Assembly (NCBI GenBank): GCA_029261855.1
Contig: JAJDAN010000034.1
Location: 117,953-150,329, forward strand
DNA from: Deltaproteobacteria bacterium
GTDB lineage: Bacteria; Myxococcota_A; UBA9160; UBA4427
DNA: 32,377 nucleotides
Direction of reading: 5' to 3'
The notes below the pieces were generated by a model that saw only the letters and a program-made list of their open reading frames with translations, made no database searches and was not told where the DNA came from. Shown in pieces: positions 2,158 to 27,673 of the stretch; positions within the stretch are counted from its first letter, which is position 1, and every line of letters begins with the position of its first letter. The translations under genes were made by a program, and so were the position numbers.

Positions 2158-3573
2158 TCAGTGACCGTTTCCAGTCTTGCCGTTTCCCCAGTCCTCGGAC
2201 CGCAGGTCCAGCTCGCGAATCTTCTGCTGCAGGCTCTGACGGACCATTCCGATGGACTGAGCGGTGCGCGAGACGTTCCCGTCGTTCTCGCGCAACGCGC
2301 GCAGCAGGAAGTCCCGCTCGAAGCTCTCGATGGTGTGCCGCTTGGCGTCCCCGAACGTCATGCCGTCGGCTGTCGACACGCCCACCTCTTCCGAATGCGT
2401 CCCGCGGTCCTGCAGGTGCAGATCGCCGACTTCGATCGCCTCACCGGCGGCCAGCACAGCGGCCTGCTCGAGGACGTTGCGAAGCTCTCGGACGTTGCCC
2501 GGCCAGGCGTGCCGCGTCAGGGTCGCGAGCGCCTCGGGGCTGAGCGGCTTCGGCTCGCGCCCGAGCCGTTCCGCGACCTGGTCGAGGAAGCGATGGGCCA
2601 GGGCGGGGATGTCCTCGGTGCGATCGCGCAGGGGCGGCAACTCGACCTCGACGACCTTGAGTCGATAGTAGAGGTCTTCCCGGAACTCTTCGGACGCGAC
2701 TTCCTTCTCGAGATCGCGGTGGGTCGCCGAGATCACGCGCACGTCCACGTCGATGCTCTGGGTGCTGCCCACCCGCTCGAGCTTCTTTTCCTGCAGGACG
2801 CGAAGCACCTTCGCCTGGGTCTCGAGGGGCATGTCGCCGATCTCGTCCAAGAAGATGGTTCCGCCGTCCGCCGCCTCGAAGCGGCCCAGGCGACGACTGT
2901 CGGCCCCGGTGAACGAACCCTTCTCGTGTCCGAACAGCTCGCTCTCCACCAGCTCGCGACTGATGGCCGCACAGTTCACCGTGATGAAGGGCCGGTTCTT
3001 GCGTGAGCTTCGGTTGTGGAGCGCCTGGGCGACGAGCTCCTTGCCCGTCCCGCTCTCGCCGCGGATCAGCACCGACAGGTCGGTCTCCGCCACCTTCTGG
3101 ACCGTCTCGAACACCTTGCGCATGGCGGGCCCGGACCCGATCAACTTCTCGAAGCCCGTGTCGCGCTGGATCTGGTCGAGCAGCAGTCGGTGCTCGCGCT
3201 CGAGGCGATAGCGGTCGATCGAGCGCCGCACGATCACGCGGATCTCGTCGTTGTCGAAGGGCTTCGGGACGTAGTCCTCGGCACCGGCCTTCATCGCCTC
3301 GACGGCGATCTTTTCGTTGCCGTGGGCGGTGATCATGACCACGGCGGTCTCCGGTCGGATCTCCTTGACGCGCTTGAGCACGTCCATTCCGGTGGCCCCG
3401 TGCCCGAGCGCCAGGTCCGTCAGGACCAGGTCGTAGCTCTGCACGCCGAGCTGCTCGATGGCCGACTCGCCTTCCACCGCGAGATCCACCTCGTAGCCTT
3501 CGCGTGTCAGCAGACCCTTGAGGGCGATGCGAATTGCGTTCTCGTCTTCGACGACCAGGATCCGGGGCTTCAT
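2158..3573 (-). CDS. NtrC-family sigma-54-dependent response regulator
   Basis: A 471-residue transcription activator with three classical domains. The receiver (about 1-120) has acidic-pocket Glu9/Asp10, phospho-acceptor Asp53 (LVLTDLAL), Thr82 and Lys104 (PKP). The AAA+ sigma-54 interaction domain (about 142-375) has Walker A GESGTGKE (172-179), a GSFTGA loop (219-224) and Walker B TIFLDEIG (239-246). A Fis-type helix-turn-helix ends the protein (GNVSRTAQSIG...QQKIREL). The loop that touches sigma-54 is normally GAFTGA; here the second residue is Ser, while the essential Phe and Thr remain. The start ATG (3573) has GGAGG upstream and overlaps the kinase stop by four bases (ATGA), which discounts the longer upstream reading frame. 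It should be phosphorylated by the two kinases encoded just before it and probably controls its own operon through the -24/-12 promoter at 6227-6242. Confidence 0.95.
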   Translation of the reverse strand: MKPRILVVEDENAIRIALKGLLTREGYEVDLAVEGESAIEQLGVQSYDLVLTDLALGHGATGMDVLKRVKEIRPETAVVMITAHGNEKIAVEAMKAGAEDYVPKPFDNDEIRVIVRRSIDRYRLEREHRLLLDQIQRDTGFEKLIGSGPAMRKVFETVQKVAETDLSVLIRGESGTGKELVAQALHNRSSRKNRPFITVNCAAISRELVESELFGHEKGSFTGADSRRLGRFEAADGGTIFLDEIGDMPLETQAKVLRVLQEKKLERVGSTQSIDVDVRVISATHRDLEKEVASEEFREDLYYRLKVVEVELPPLRDRTEDIPALAHRFLDQVAERLGREPKPLSPEALATLTRHAWPGNVRELRNVLEQAAVLAAGEAIEVGDLHLQDRGTHSEEVGVSTADGMTFGDAKRHTIESFERDFLLRALRENDGNVSRTAQSIGMVRQSLQQKIRELDLRSEDWGNGKTGNGH

Positions 3574-4838
3574 GCTCCACCTCCGTGGCTTCCGCGCTTC
3601 GGGATCGTGAGCACGAACTCCGTGCCCCGTCCGGGCTCGGACGTCAGCTCGATGGTTCCGCGGTGGGCCTCCACCAGCTTCTTGGTGATCGGGAGACCCA
3701 GTCCCGTGCCGCCGCTCTTCGACGTCACGAAGGGCGAGAAGATCCGCTCGCGCAGCTCTTCCGGGATGCCGACGCCGTTGTCCTGGATGCGGACCCAGAC
3801 CTCGGTGCCAGCCAGGTTCTCGCCCATGGAAACCTCCAGCCGCGGCGAGTCGACGCGGGCCTCGGCGAGGGCATCCATGCCGTTGCCGAGCAGGTTGATG
3901 ACGATCCGGCGCAACTTGTCGGCATCCCCGTCCACGAGCCCGTCGGTGTCGAACTGCTTGGCGATCTCGACCCGTTCGCGAGAGGCGCGGTCCCGGAAGG
4001 TCTCGATCGCGGACTCGAGCACATCGATCATCGAGACCTGCTCCAGCCGCATTTCTTCTTCCCGCGCGAAGCGCAGCAGGTGCGTGATGGAACGCTCGAC
4101 GCGCTCGAGCTCTTCGACGGCGACCCGCGCGTACTCCGCGTTGTCTTCGGAGCTGGGCTCTTCGCTCATCTGCTGCACCAGACTCTTGGCCGCCGTGATG
4201 GGATTGCGGATCTCGTGCGCGATCGAAGCGGACAGCTGCTCGAGATCCCGCGAGTGCTCGCCCTCGAGCGAGCGGCGTTCTTGAGAGACGTTCCGGTGCA
4301 CCTGCTTCTGCACCTCGTCCTCGACGATGCGCTCCTTCCAGGACGGACCGACCAGCTGGTCGAAGTAGCGCCGGGAAAGCTGGATGCCCCAAACGATCAG
4401 GAGGATGAAGCCCAGCCAGGTCAGGGGCGGGATCAGCATCAGGACGAGCACGATTCCGCCCTTCTTCGCGGCAGCGATGTAGAGCTCGGCCTTCCGGTCG
4501 GCGCGCTCGCGGGCCGATTCGACGCGGGCCTCGTAGCCGGGCTCTTCTTCCGCCGGTTCTTCGTGCTCCTCGGGAGGCAGGGTCTGCAGAGAAGACGGCG
4601 CGCGGCTCTCCTCGATCTCCTCGAGGAAGCTGCGATCGTCGAGCGCCGGGTCGTAGGGCATCTCGAGCCGACCGCTCGCACCGCGACGATGGCGACGCCG
4701 CCTGCGAGACGATCCGGGCGCGGGCGGCGCAGGCGGTCGGTCCGAACTTCCGGCCATCGGCTCAGCCTCCCAAGGGTTCGCGGCGAGGGTACCAAGCGCC
4801 GGTCTGGCGGCGTGGGCGGTCTGGATCGTGCGGCTCAT
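3570..4838 (-). CDS. Membrane histidine kinase with a two-helix hairpin (second of a tandem pair)
   Basis: A sensor kinase of 422 residues. An N-terminal cytosolic arm is proline/arginine rich, then acidic (about 30-110). A short membrane hairpin follows (about 127-152), related to the 2TM domain (note WGI...RYF). Then come a linker with RIVEDEV, a HisKA dimerisation domain with phospho-acceptor His208 (HEIRNP) and an ATPase domain with N box (INLLGNGMDAL), DNGVGI, SPFVTSK and GTGLGLP. There is no periplasmic loop of useful size, so it fits an intramembrane-sensing kinase. The chosen start overlaps the upstream kinase stop by four bases (ATGA) with GGAAGG in front. An internal ATG at 4757 (Met28) has a stronger GGGAGG at 8 nt spacing and is a real alternative. 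It is paralogous to the neighbouring kinase and presumably phosphorylates the regulator that follows. Confidence 0.92.
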   Translation of the reverse strand: MSRTIQTAHAARPALGTLAANPWEAEPMAGSSDRPPAPPAPGSSRRRRRHRRGASGRLEMPYDPALDDRSFLEEIEESRAPSSLQTLPPEEHEEPAEEEPGYEARVESARERADRKAELYIAAAKKGGIVLVLMLIPPLTWLGFILLIVWGIQLSRRYFDQLVGPSWKERIVEDEVQKQVHRNVSQERRSLEGEHSRDLEQLSASIAHEIRNPITAAKSLVQQMSEEPSSEDNAEYARVAVEELERVERSITHLLRFAREEEMRLEQVSMIDVLESAIETFRDRASRERVEIAKQFDTDGLVDGDADKLRRIVINLLGNGMDALAEARVDSPRLEVSMGENLAGTEVWVRIQDNGVGIPEELRERIFSPFVTSKSGGTGLGLPITKKLVEAHRGTIELTSEPGRGTEFVLTIPKRGSHGGGA

Positions 4839-6166
4839 ACCGAGCCTTCCGCGTCTTTCGGAAAGCCCAGGACCATCTCGGTGCCGCTCTCGACGTTCGA
4901 GGCGACCTCGAGGGTACCGCCGTGGGCGTCGACGACCTTCTTCGACAATGCGAGCCCCAGGCCCGTCCCCTTGTCCTTCGTTGTGAAGAAGGGACTGAAG
5001 ATCTTGTCGATCACGTCGGGATGGATGCCGGGCCCGTTGTCCGCAACGCGCACCCAGACCTGCGTGCCAGCGAGGTTCTCTCCGACCATGATCGTGAGGC
5101 GCGGCGCCCGGGTGTTCCCGGCCTCGAGCGCGTCGAGGGCATTGCCGACCAGGTTGACCAGGACCCGCCGCATGCGCTCTGCGTCGCCTCGCATGCGTCC
5201 GGGCGTGTCGAGCTGCAGGTCGAGCTCGACCTGTAGCAGTTCGATCCGATCGCTGAACTCGTCGAGGGTCGACTGGACCACATCGGCCATCGCGAAGCTC
5301 TCGAAGTGGATCTCCTCGTCGCGCGCGTAGCGCAGCAGATGGGAGATCGATCGCTCGACGCGGTCGAGCTCTTCGAGGGCGACGTTGGCGTACTGGATGT
5401 TGTCGGGGGCCACCGGGTCCTCGCCCATCTGCTGGACCAGGTTCTTGGCGGCGGTGACCGGGTTGCGGATCTCGTGGGCGATGGACGCGGACAGGTCTTC
5501 GAGGGATCGCTCGTGGCGGGTCGAGGCGTCGCGTCGCTCCTGGGTGACGCCCTGGGCGACGCTGCGCCCGACCTCGTCCTCGATCAGCCGTTGGCGCAGG
5601 CCCGGTGCGATCACCGCGGAGAAGTAGTGGATGGCGATGCCGATGCCCCAGGACGCCGCGACGATCAGCGTCGCGCGCAGGTTGTGTGACGACACCAGGA
5701 TCAAGGCCAGCACCGACACGTACGCGATGAAGTGCGTCATGAACCCGATGCGGGCGTTCGCCCGGCGTCGGGCGTCCCGGTAGGCGCGTTCCTCGGGCGA
5801 CAGCTGACGTCGGTTGCGACCGCGTGCTGCCGACCGGCGCGAAGCGGGCGGGACCGGCGGAACGGGAGCGGCCGGCTGAGCGGGCGGGGCCGGACGACGA
5901 CGGCGACGGCGGCCCTCCCGGTCCTGGCGGCGGGCGCGATCGCGGTCGCGGCGCTGCTGCCGACGCGCTTCGCGCTCCCGATCCCGCTCTTGTCGGGTCT
6001 CCCGCTTCAAGGCCGCCTCCTCGCGCTCGAGTTGTCGCTTCTCCAGCGCCTCGCGCTGACGTGTGGCCTTGAGCAGCGCCTGCTCGGCCTTCAGAAGACC
6101 CTTGGCGGTCTTCTGACGGATCTTCCGTTCGGCCTTGGAAAGCTCTTCGTCCCAGCGATCCGCCAT
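4835..6166 (-). CDS. Membrane histidine kinase with 2TM domain and basic coiled-coil arm (first of a tandem pair)
   Basis: A sensor kinase of 443 residues. Residues 1-90 are an extremely charged Arg/Glu coiled coil ending in a poly-Arg run. A Pro/Ala linker follows (91-112). A 2TM-type membrane hairpin (about 137-185) has ANARIGFMTHFIAY and WGIGIAIHYF, with only a few residues between its helices. The linker RLIEDEV precedes HisKA with His231 (HEIRNP), and the ATPase domain has N342, DNGPGI (376-381), SPFFTTK (391-397) and GTGLGLA (400-406). The start at 6166 is supported by GGAGG seven bases upstream. A longer in-frame extension to 6265 exists, but it runs across the sigma-54 promoter at 6227-6242, so it is rejected. 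It is the first gene of the four-gene operon. Lack of an extracytoplasmic domain means the signal is probably read in or at the membrane, or through the coiled-coil arm. Confidence 0.93.
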   Translation of the reverse strand: MADRWDEELSKAERKIRQKTAKGLLKAEQALLKATRQREALEKRQLEREEAALKRETRQERDREREARRQQRRDRDRARRQDREGRRRRRRPAPPAQPAAPVPPVPPASRRSAARGRNRRQLSPEERAYRDARRRANARIGFMTHFIAYVSVLALILVSSHNLRATLIVAASWGIGIAIHYFSAVIAPGLRQRLIEDEVGRSVAQGVTQERRDASTRHERSLEDLSASIAHEIRNPVTAAKNLVQQMGEDPVAPDNIQYANVALEELDRVERSISHLLRYARDEEIHFESFAMADVVQSTLDEFSDRIELLQVELDLQLDTPGRMRGDAERMRRVLVNLVGNALDALEAGNTRAPRLTIMVGENLAGTQVWVRVADNGPGIHPDVIDKIFSPFFTTKDKGTGLGLALSKKVVDAHGGTLEVASNVESGTEMVLGFPKDAEGSV

Positions 6167-6226
6167 GAAGTGGCCTCCAGAGACCCGTGCTGTGCGACCC
6201 GTGCTGGCTTGCATGCCCCGGTGAAG

Positions 6227-6242
6227 AGCAAGCGGCGTGCCG
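6227..6242 (-). promoter_or_regulatory. Sigma-54 (-24/-12) promoter of the kinase-regulator-pspA operon
   Basis: Read on the minus strand the element is CGGCACGCCGCTTGCT. It matches the consensus TGGCACG-N4-TTGCW at every defined position except the first T, and the GG and GC are exactly 10 bases apart. The predicted start is about 6216, giving a leader of about 50 nt before the kinase ATG at 6166. The operon encodes a sigma-54 activator, so autoregulation is the natural inference. Confidence 0.8.
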
Positions 6243-6251
6243 ATTCCGAGT

Positions 6252-6268
6252 TCCTTGATTTTCAAGGA
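6252..6268. promoter_or_regulatory. Palindrome just upstream of the -24 element
   Basis: TCCTTGA-TTT-TCAAGGA is a perfect 7-bp inverted repeat with a 3-base centre. It is centred near -44 relative to the predicted sigma-54 start. This position suits IHF-like bending or a proximal activator or repressor site; the role is inferred. Confidence 0.4.
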
Positions 6269-6315
6269 CTTACGAGACCCGTGCCGCTTCCGGACTGCAG
6301 GGGCAGCACTTCAGA

Positions 6316-6333
6316 TGCAGTGAATTTACTGCA
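6316..6333. promoter_or_regulatory. Palindromic candidate upstream activating site
   Basis: TGCAGTGAATTTACTGCA is an 18-nt near-perfect palindrome with TGCAGT/ACTGCA arms and one mismatched pair. It is centred about 108 bp upstream of the predicted sigma-54 start, where NtrC-type activators usually bind. A further ACTGCA half lies at 6294-6299. It could equally serve the divergent glutathione-transferase gene at 6435. Confidence 0.5.
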
Positions 6334-6434: not shown

Positions 6435-7103
6435 ATGTCCCTCACCATCCTGGGCGGGAACGTCTCGCCCTTCGTCCGCAAGGTCCGGGTCTTCTGCGCC
6501 GAGAAGGGCATCGCCTACGAGCTCGAGCCCATCAACCCCTTCGGAGCCCCCGAAGGCTTCCGGGACGTCAGCCCCCTGGGCAAGATCCCCGTGCTGCGCG
6601 ACGGCGACCGGCACCTGCCGGACTCGTCGATCATCTGCGCCTACCTCGAGAAGCTGCACCCGAAGACCCCGTTGTATCCGGCGGACCCCTGGGAGCATGC
6701 GCGCGCGACCTGGCTCGAGGAATACGTCGACGGCGGGGTCGTCCCCAAGGCCGGACCGAACGTCTTCTTTCCGCTGGTGCTCGCACCGCTCATGCAGGGC
6801 AAGGAAGTCGACGACGCCGAGCCCATGCGCTTCGCGCGGGAAGAGATGCCGCCCTTCTACGAGTATCTCGAGGGCGAGCTCGGGGACGAGGAGTTCTTCG
6901 TAGGCGGCAAGCTGTCGATCGCGGACATCGCCGTGGCCAGCCCCTTCGTGAACCTCCGGCACGCCGGCGTCGCGCCGGAACGCGCGCGCTTCCCCAGGCT
7001 CCGGGCCTTCCTCGACCACATGCACGGACGTCCTTCGTTCAAGGCATGCATCGAAGAAGAGGCCCCCGTGTACGGCAAGCGCGCGGCACTCATCCAGGAC
7101 TAG
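6435..7103 (+). CDS. Glutathione S-transferase family protein
   Basis: A soluble 222-residue protein with the two-domain GST layout. The N-terminal thioredoxin-like domain (about 1-78) has SPFVRKVR with Ser11 at the usual catalytic position, the cis-proline segment KIPVL (Pro52) and the glutathione-contacting pair DSS (63-65). An all-helical C-terminal domain carries the conserved LSIADIAVASPF stretch. It would conjugate glutathione to electrophiles or act as an isomerase or dehalogenating GST; the substrate is unknown. The start ATG has a GGAG a few bases upstream. It is divergent from the kinase operon across a 268-bp region. On the same strand it is followed after 27 bp by the ABM-domain gene. 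Confidence 0.92.
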   Translation: MSLTILGGNVSPFVRKVRVFCAEKGIAYELEPINPFGAPEGFRDVSPLGKIPVLRDGDRHLPDSSIICAYLEKLHPKTPLYPADPWEHARATWLEEYVDGGVVPKAGPNVFFPLVLAPLMQGKEVDDAEPMRFAREEMPPFYEYLEGELGDEEFFVGGKLSIADIAVASPFVNLRHAGVAPERARFPRLRAFLDHMHGRPSFKACIEEEAPVYGKRAALIQD

Positions 7104-25426: not shown

Positions 25427-27673
25427 TCAGTCGGACGGCAGCGCTGCGAAATCGACGAAGATCGGCGAGCTCCAGGCCCGCGGCTCGTGCTCGGCGAGAC
25501 AATCCCCGTCCCCCTCGCACAACCGCGCCCGGATGCAGCGCCCCTCCGAGTCGTATTCGCAGTTCGCGCCGGCCGCGTTGATCGCGGGCGCCGGCGCCTC
25601 GAAGGCCCGGGCGTAGTAGACCGCGTCCCGGCCCGCCGTGCGGAACTCACTGTCGACGAAGGTGCCGACGCAACCTTCACGGCTGCCGTCGCACTCGATG
25701 ACCTGCCAGGGGTCGTCGATCAGGCTAGCCACGTCCTCGTCCGGAGAGGTCTGCGGCCGCACGCGGACCACCTCGATGCGAGTGATCTCTCGGCGCTCGT
25801 CCGACGGGTTGTAACAGACGCCCCGGCAAAGGTGCTCGATGGCCTCGGGGCCCAACGCATCGGTCGCGTAGTCGGGGCAGCCCGGGTCCTGCTCGAATGA
25901 GCCCACGGCGCGCACCTGGAAGATCGGCGCGTCCTGCATCTCGACCTCGCTTCCCATGGCAAGCGTGTTGCCGCGCGACCCCGGCGGGTTGATGAGGTCG
26001 AACCAGAGCAGGATGCGCGGGCCCGAAGTGCCGTAGACCTCTCGGCGCTGGACGGCTTCCCAGACCGAGTCGCGGTCGCGCCCCTCGGCGTGGGCGGCGA
26101 CGAGTCCGCCTGTCAGGAAGAACGAACCCTGGCGCTCGAGCTCGATGAGCTGGAAGGCCCGCAGGTCCGTGTCCGAGGGGTCGAAGGGCACCGGGAATGC
26201 CGTCGCTGGTAGCGCGGGTGCCCGGGTCATCCGCTGCAGCACGCCGGGCGCATCGCGACGGCGGGTGTTCGATTCGGTCATCGACGAGCGGAACTGCTCC
26301 TTGTAGCCCGTCCCCGGGCGCGCCGTGTGGTTGTCACTCGACGCCATGAAGCCCATGCGGAAACGACGCGGATCGTTCGGATCGTCTTCGAAGTTGCCCA
26401 GGGCCAGGATGTACTGGGCGGATCCACCCGGTCGGTAGTTGAAGGAGGGCTCGGGACAATCGCGGCACTGGCCGGCATCGAGCCAGTCCGCCGGGCGCTC
26501 ACCCTGCACCACGAGGTGGGCCTGACCGCCGGCTTCTGCCGCCAGCTGGCGCGTCTCGGCGGCGCGCTCATCGCAAGTGTCGGGGCCGTCGCCTTCCGCC
26601 AGGCAGCGCTCCCGGATGATCTCTCCGGCGCGGAAGCAGATGGGCTCGTAGTCGGCGGTCGGCTCGGGACAGCGCACGCTGCCGTCCGACTCGTGAACGA
26701 CGGCACGCCAGGACCGGTACGGTTCCGAGTCGCCGTGACCCGAGTACACCTCCAGCAGGGTCTGGCGGTCGGGGTCGTGCATGTCCCCGGAAAGCTGCTT
26801 GTCCCAGGTCGAGCCCGTCGGCGTATAGAAGCCCCAGGTCGTACCGTGAGGGATCACGATCGAATCGAAGCTCCACTCGTCGAGCTTTCGGAACAGCTCG
26901 ACCGGCGTCGGAGCGACCTCGATGCAGTCGCGGGGAAGATCCGGAGAGCTCACGCCTTCGGGACAGAAATCGAGTCCGCCCAACGAGTCGATGTAGGCCG
27001 CGAAGTCGCGCGCCCGGGGGCCGCCGAACAAAGCAAACAGACCGCGCCCGATCACCGGCGGCGGATTCAGCCGGATGCCCAGGGTGCGACCTCCCGCCGC
27101 GATCGGCCGCGTGGGGATCTCATCGTCCGCGAGGCCGCGGATCACGACGTTCTTGTGGCCGTAGTGGGTGTCGGGGGTTCCGCCGACCTGGGTCCATTCC
27201 CAGCCCAGGTACGCGACCGTGTCCGGGTTCGACGCGTCTCCCGCGCGCTCGTTGCAGGCACGGATCGATTCGATGGTCTCGTCCCAGGCGGCCGGCGAGA
27301 TCGCTTCGGCATGATCGTTGATGGACCAGAAGTCGAGGGCCGAGCAGTAGCGTGCGAAGTCGCAGGCATCGGCGGGAGGATGCGCGCCCTCGCCACCGGC
27401 TGCGGGCAGGCTGGCCATGAAGGCGTCGAACGAGAAGGTGGTGTGGACGTGGAAGTCGCCGAACAGGACCTGCTTGGGTGAGGACACACCGACTTCGTCC
27501 GCCGCCTCGCGCACCGCCGCCTCGTTGTCGCGCTGGACCGACGCGGGGCGCGCGGCACCGCGGATCTCGCCAGGCCCGTCCGGCGATCCGAAGAAGCCGC
27601 GGCCGGCCATCCACACGACGGCGAGCGCGGCGAACACGATCACGAAGAGAACGATGAGTACGCGGCGCAGCAT
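25427..27673 (-). CDS. DUF3604 protein with PHP-like motifs, membrane-anchored
   Basis: A 748-residue protein. Residues 4-26 form an uncleaved signal anchor or signal peptide (VLIVLFVIVFAALAVVWMA). The body is DUF3604: LFGDFHVHTTFSFDAF (His75 and His77), DFWSINDHAEAISPAAW, NPDTVAYLGWEWTQVG, SIVIPHGTTWGFY, GFMASSDNHTARPGTGYK and REVYGTSGPRILLWF. The HxH and SxNDH pattern is that of PHP-type metal-dependent hydrolases, so it probably binds metal. The reaction is unknown. Many cysteines in the C-terminal third suggest disulfides and an extracytoplasmic location. The start is ATG 27673, with GAGG eight bases upstream; an in-frame TTG at 27700 is the alternative. It lies 39 bp upstream of the SDR and 79 bp downstream of the M48 gene. 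Confidence 0.9.
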   Translation of the reverse strand: MLRRVLIVLFVIVFAALAVVWMAGRGFFGSPDGPGEIRGAARPASVQRDNEAAVREAADEVGVSSPKQVLFGDFHVHTTFSFDAFMASLPAAGGEGAHPPADACDFARYCSALDFWSINDHAEAISPAAWDETIESIRACNERAGDASNPDTVAYLGWEWTQVGGTPDTHYGHKNVVIRGLADDEIPTRPIAAGGRTLGIRLNPPPVIGRGLFALFGGPRARDFAAYIDSLGGLDFCPEGVSSPDLPRDCIEVAPTPVELFRKLDEWSFDSIVIPHGTTWGFYTPTGSTWDKQLSGDMHDPDRQTLLEVYSGHGDSEPYRSWRAVVHESDGSVRCPEPTADYEPICFRAGEIIRERCLAEGDGPDTCDERAAETRQLAAEAGGQAHLVVQGERPADWLDAGQCRDCPEPSFNYRPGGSAQYILALGNFEDDPNDPRRFRMGFMASSDNHTARPGTGYKEQFRSSMTESNTRRRDAPGVLQRMTRAPALPATAFPVPFDPSDTDLRAFQLIELERQGSFFLTGGLVAAHAEGRDRDSVWEAVQRREVYGTSGPRILLWFDLINPPGSRGNTLAMGSEVEMQDAPIFQVRAVGSFEQDPGCPDYATDALGPEAIEHLCRGVCYNPSDERREITRIEVVRVRPQTSPDEDVASLIDDPWQVIECDGSREGCVGTFVDSEFRTAGRDAVYYARAFEAPAPAINAAGANCEYDSEGRCIRARLCEGDGDCLAEHEPRAWSSPIFVDFAALPSD

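Follow-up and report, generated by a model that had tools for sequence, protein, structure and literature searches.

The pspA promoter of E. coli is sigma-54 dependent and carries two sites for the activator PspF, with assistance from IHF (PMC3709507). PspF combines an AAA+ domain with a Fis-type HTH and has no receiver domain. Its gene is divergent, with its own sigma-70 promoter and negative autoregulation, and the protein is inhibited by PspA (PMC3709507). In Bacillus subtilis the PspA-family protein of the lia operon is controlled by the two-component system LiaRS and has Toastrack partners; the regulator LiaR joins a receiver to an HTH without an AAA+ domain and is not sigma-54 dependent (PMC9239133, PMC11237479). 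Sigma-54 systems of the ZraSR and AtoSC types pair a histidine kinase with an NtrC-family regulator, and ZraR can autoregulate its own operon (PMC12316311). Searches within two large psp surveys (PMC11237479, PMC9239133) yielded LiaRS-like systems and NtrC-like regulators that carry ACT/PAS domains, but no REC-NtrC operon of the type presented here.

The operon studied here lies in a window of 32,377 nucleotides, part of a 6.96-Mb assembly of 91 contigs whose closest named relatives are Myxococcota MAGs. Its genes run on the minus strand in the order HK1-HK2-regulator-PspA, and the junctions are overlaps of 1–4 bp or a 26-bp gap. HK1 (4835–6166, starting at the ATG at 6166) is a 2TM-HisKA-HATPase histidine kinase, and overlaps by 4 bp the second HisKA-HATPase kinase, HK2 (3570–4838). 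The response regulator (2158–3570) contains a receiver (PF00072), a sigma-54 AAA+ domain (PF00158, Sigma54_activat) and a Fis-type HTH (PF02954), and is thus a member of the NtrC family. Its GSFTGA loop is of the GAFTGA type, and RpoN is encoded on contig C33. The final gene (1376–2131) encodes a protein of the PspA/IM30 family, scoring 69.9 bits against Pfam PF04012 (gathering score 33.9) and far under the cut-off of the NCBIfam PspA equivalog TIGR02977. The regulator scores 284 bits against the PspF equivalog TIGR02974, where the cut-off is 443.6, and is therefore not a PspF equivalog; the best model matches of kinases and regulator include AtoS/ZraS and NtrC/AtoC, all under their cut-offs. 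PspB/C are absent from the operon, and a search of a plasmid collection gave no match. Upstream, a glutathione transferase gene begins at 6435 and is directed away from the operon, leaving an intergenic gap of 268 bp.

With a probability of about 0.83, we read this region as the combined enhancer and promoter of an envelope-stress operon of the psp type, in which the phage-shock system takes a two-component form that depends on sigma-54 and regulates itself. The -24/-12 element GGCACGCCGCTTGC (GGCACG-N4-TTGC; 6228–6241, minus strand) has the exact GG-N10-GC spacing and a single mismatch to TGGCACG-N4-TTGC, and the predicted transcription start is close to 6216. The preliminary description of this DNA had located the element, including at 6227 the T that follows it, and had placed it 60 bp before a first gene encoding a kinase; the first gene is indeed a kinase, the 2TM protein HK1, and the distance to its ATG is 61 bp. 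Upstream are two dyads. UAS site 1, TGCAGTAAATTCACTGCA (TGCAGT-GAATTT-ACTGCA; 6316–6333, minus strand), is centred at -108.5, and the degenerate site 2 (TGAAG-N8-CTGCA; 6296–6313, minus strand) lies 20 bp away, with its centre at -88.5. The ACTGCA letters at 6294–6299 are present as described earlier, but rather than an isolated extra half-site they overlap the right arm of site 2. Between enhancer and promoter there is an IHF-like site, TAAGTCCTTGAAA (6260–6272, minus strand, centred at about -50), with one mismatch to YAANNNNTTGATW, the IHF consensus in reverse. Both IHF alpha and beta are encoded in the genome, above the NF001401 and NF001222 cut-offs.

Since E. coli pspA combines two activator sites, IHF and sigma-54 (PMC3709507), the layout in the window is of the same kind. 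A PspA-family operon is preceded by a sigma-54 promoter, two upstream sites and an IHF-like site, of which site 2 and the IHF-like site occur in about half of the orthologous promoters. The likeness described here is one of layout. The best reading of the sequence is a promoter arranged like that of E. coli pspA, with a REC-AAA-Fis regulator in the place of PspF. Both activators have AAA+ and Fis-type HTH domains. In contrast to PspF, the regulator of the window has a receiver, would share its transcript with two kinases and pspA, and probably autoregulates positively. As in lia, a PspA-family protein would answer to a two-component system, but the kinases and promoter type of this operon differ, and its AAA+ domain sets the regulator apart from the LiaR type. 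Compared with the ZraSR and AtoSC types, it has pspA and two kinases.

How general is this arrangement? Relatives of the genome and GTDB contigs were the sources of orthologous operons, in which we located the genes and scanned the region upstream of the first kinase; the resulting 49 distinct HK-(HK)-NtrC-type RR-PspA promoters are all those with a readable upstream region. A -24/-12 candidate is present at every one, the GG-N10-GC being kept in its TGGCAC/TTGC context, and the sigma-54 element and dyad recur in 49/49. The hosts are Myxococcota MAGs and Candidatus Binatota, the kinases of the latter being only ~40% identical to those of the window. Among 191 sampled genomes of the phylum, the regulator orthologues number 22, all of them within the class of the window. 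The preliminary description had made its proposal depend on conservation upstream of orthologous operons; this check did not refute it, both element and dyad being kept across Myxococcota and Binatota.

The best match to TGCAG-N8-CTGCA within 200 bp upstream has no mismatch in 35 of the 49 promoters, one in 13 and two in the remaining one. Thus the dyad reported earlier near -108 is conserved with 0–1 mismatch in 48/49, whereas control windows from the same loci contain 0-mismatch dyads at 0% and 1-mismatch dyads at 0.57%. T or C is favoured after the left arm and G or A before the right, so the TGCAGT-N6-ACTGCA put forward as an 18-bp recognition sequence is correct in outline, being one version of site 1, but the conserved core is the narrower TGCAG-N8-CTGCA. 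Site 1 is mostly centred between -104 and -110. Of 36 Myxococcota promoters, 21 have a second right arm (CTGCA/G) at a distance of 32–33 bp from where site 1 starts; site 2 occurs in about half of all promoters and is weak in Binatota. The predicted IHF site is similarly distributed, occurring in about half and weak in Binatota: the consensus WATCAANNNNTTR is matched between enhancer and promoter with no more than two mismatches in 25/49, against 10.5% of shuffles, and the promoter matches to YAANNNNTTGATW cluster at -50/-51.

Counted alone across the genome, neither motif stands out strongly from its reversed-pattern control, as would be expected of chance matches in a GC-rich genome: the -24/-12 pattern has 38 matches against 15, a modest excess only, and the dyad occurs at 10 places against 9, no excess, with seven other genomic TGCAG-N8-CTGCA places having no downstream sigma-54 site. 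Yet the motifs are conserved at one position upstream of orthologous operons, down to ~40% kinase identity and with control rates below 1%, and we therefore give chance virtually no credence. Moreover, when orthologous loci totalling 1.14 Mb were scanned on both strands, 46 sigma-54 sites scored 14 or more, and 41 of them fall at this promoter, in a tally where a few loci fetched from both collections are counted twice. A palindrome near -44 was also reported, and the window does carry one (TCCTTGA-TTT-TCAAGGA, 6252–6268; 17 nt, a perfect 7-3-7), which overlaps the IHF-like site and might be taken as a further place where the activator, or else a repressor, binds. However, the window is the only one of the 49 promoters where it is perfect, mismatches elsewhere are spread much as in shuffled sequence, the congener L028 lacks it and its sequence is unlike the dyad. 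We rejected it as a conserved element and consider such a binding site very unlikely. What is conserved in this stretch is YAANNNNTTGATW-like, and looks like an IHF site.

Which protein binds the dyads? Scanning 61 related genomes for the combined pattern of dyad, 58–88 bp and -24/-12 element, we find it in 28 of the 35 genomes that have the orthologous regulator and in 5 of the 26 that lack it (Fisher p=2.6e-6, uncorrected for phylogeny). Within genus g10 it is present in 4/4 genomes with the regulator and 1/5 without, that one being an operon relic. Among the five exceptions, the promoter in G010 lies 12 bp ahead of a PspA fragment, this being the operon relic, and the match in G049 belongs to a psp promoter (L038) where the regulator gene is either broken or wrongly assembled. 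The regulator HTH is near-invariant (GMVRQSLQQKIREL in Myxococcota and GMYRQSFQQKMREL in Binatota), and the operator is the same in both. The co-occurrence speaks for the operon's own regulator as the binding protein, short of proof, and together with the HTH lends indirect support to the autoregulation proposed in the preliminary description. Promoter and operator could be genuine and the dyad nevertheless be bound by a different NtrC-family activator, leaving the operon without autoregulation. Other NtrC-family proteins exist in these genomes, with dozens of first-look activator candidates in each; the operator is also found at unlinked genes; and in G055, where the regulator was not found, the operator accompanies a Toastrack target. 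But operator and promoter track the operon's own regulator, in g10 as in the whole set, and its HTH is conserved as strongly as the operator. We regard a different activator as improbable, and the operon's regulator as the likely binder of the UAS.

From the promoter, both dyads, the operon order, their conservation and their co-occurrence with the regulator, all read directly from sequence, we infer how the switch may work, with a presumed stress signal and direction of control. One or both membrane kinases would phosphorylate the receiver domain of the regulator, whose Fis-type HTH would bind the two tandem dyads, TGCAG-N8-CTGCA at -108 and TGnnG-N8-CTGCA at -88. IHF would introduce a bend near -50, and the AAA+ ring would remodel sigma-54 polymerase at -24/-12, starting transcription near 6216. 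The transcript would supply both kinases and the regulator, giving positive autoregulation, together with PspA for protection of the membrane. Control from the same operator would extend to a few unlinked envelope genes. The region is a real and deeply conserved switch, and the membrane-stress operon very probably uses its recognisable 18-bp address to activate both itself and a small number of further envelope genes.

The genome itself contains two further operator plus sigma-54 arrangements. On contig 16 (L133, G000, 4398–4781) the arrangement precedes a DUF5683-like membrane protein (84 aa, PGLGQVYxGRL type; the Pfam match is weak and sub-threshold), and on contig 48 (L134, G000, 4018–5449) it precedes a cytochrome P450. 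The DUF5683-like small membrane protein is preceded by the arrangement in seven genomes (G000, G001, G004, G005, G012, G024 and G043), and the cytochrome P450 follows it in both genus members sampled. In relatives it also stands before Toastrack (DUF4097) proteins in four genomes, HlyD-type proteins in two, and DUF4389 and haemolysin-III once each; Toastrack proteins are known psp partners (PMC11237479). A second arm at an offset of 31–34 accompanies 18 of 28 matches before these or psp genes and 1 of 14 others, the downstream genes being labelled by eye. The occurrence of the operator before Toastrack, DUF5683-like and other genes suggests that it drives a small envelope regulon beyond the psp operon. 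A separate match at 25877–25971 of the window is without the full dyad; we took it as chance and rejected it as a target.

Does this constitute a new type of phage-shock system? On balance we lean, by a small margin, towards an undescribed branch confined to one Myxococcota class and Binatota. In it two membrane kinases and a REC-NtrC regulator would replace PspF, controlling through TGCAG-N8-CTGCA a sigma-54 envelope regulon of pspA, Toastrack, the small DUF5683-like membrane protein and HlyD-type genes. In the open-licence literature we found no published TGCAG-N8-CTGCA activator site and no account of this operon. Such a branch would join the psp promoter layout of tandem enhancers, IHF and sigma-54 to two-component sensing, a combination not found in the searches of the two surveys (PMC11237479, PMC9239133), and the kinases, not the activator, may then be where PspA exerts its feedback. 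Through the common operator, Toastrack and PspA would be connected at the level of regulation, whether or not their genes are neighbours. For bacterial groups represented here almost entirely by metagenome assemblies, this would also supply an envelope-stress response with a DNA address and with a regulon open to testing.

Some further features of individual loci may be described. In Binatota pspA can lie ~0.5 kb past the regulator, and no separate sigma-54/operator promoter was found before it there. In six Binatota loci (L050, L052, L053, L055, L058 and L063) a small extra membrane gene, methyltransferase-like by eye, apparently lies between the two. At the relic in G010 (L195, C62:86200–90500) the operator and sigma-54 site are intact and are directly followed by a fragment of the C-terminal half of PspA; the kinases and regulator are gone.

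The start of HK1 offers a last observation. An in-frame ATG is present at 6214 on the minus strand, +3 of the predicted transcript. Across the 49 promoters an ATG occurs at +3/+4 in 28, all but one of which (27) share the reading frame of the first kinase, and the codon composition of the resulting N-terminal extension is not clearly coding. The distance from this ATG to the next start led by a Shine-Dalgarno sequence varies from 11 to 36 codons, and the maintenance of frame despite this variation suggests a nearly leaderless alternative start for the first kinase.
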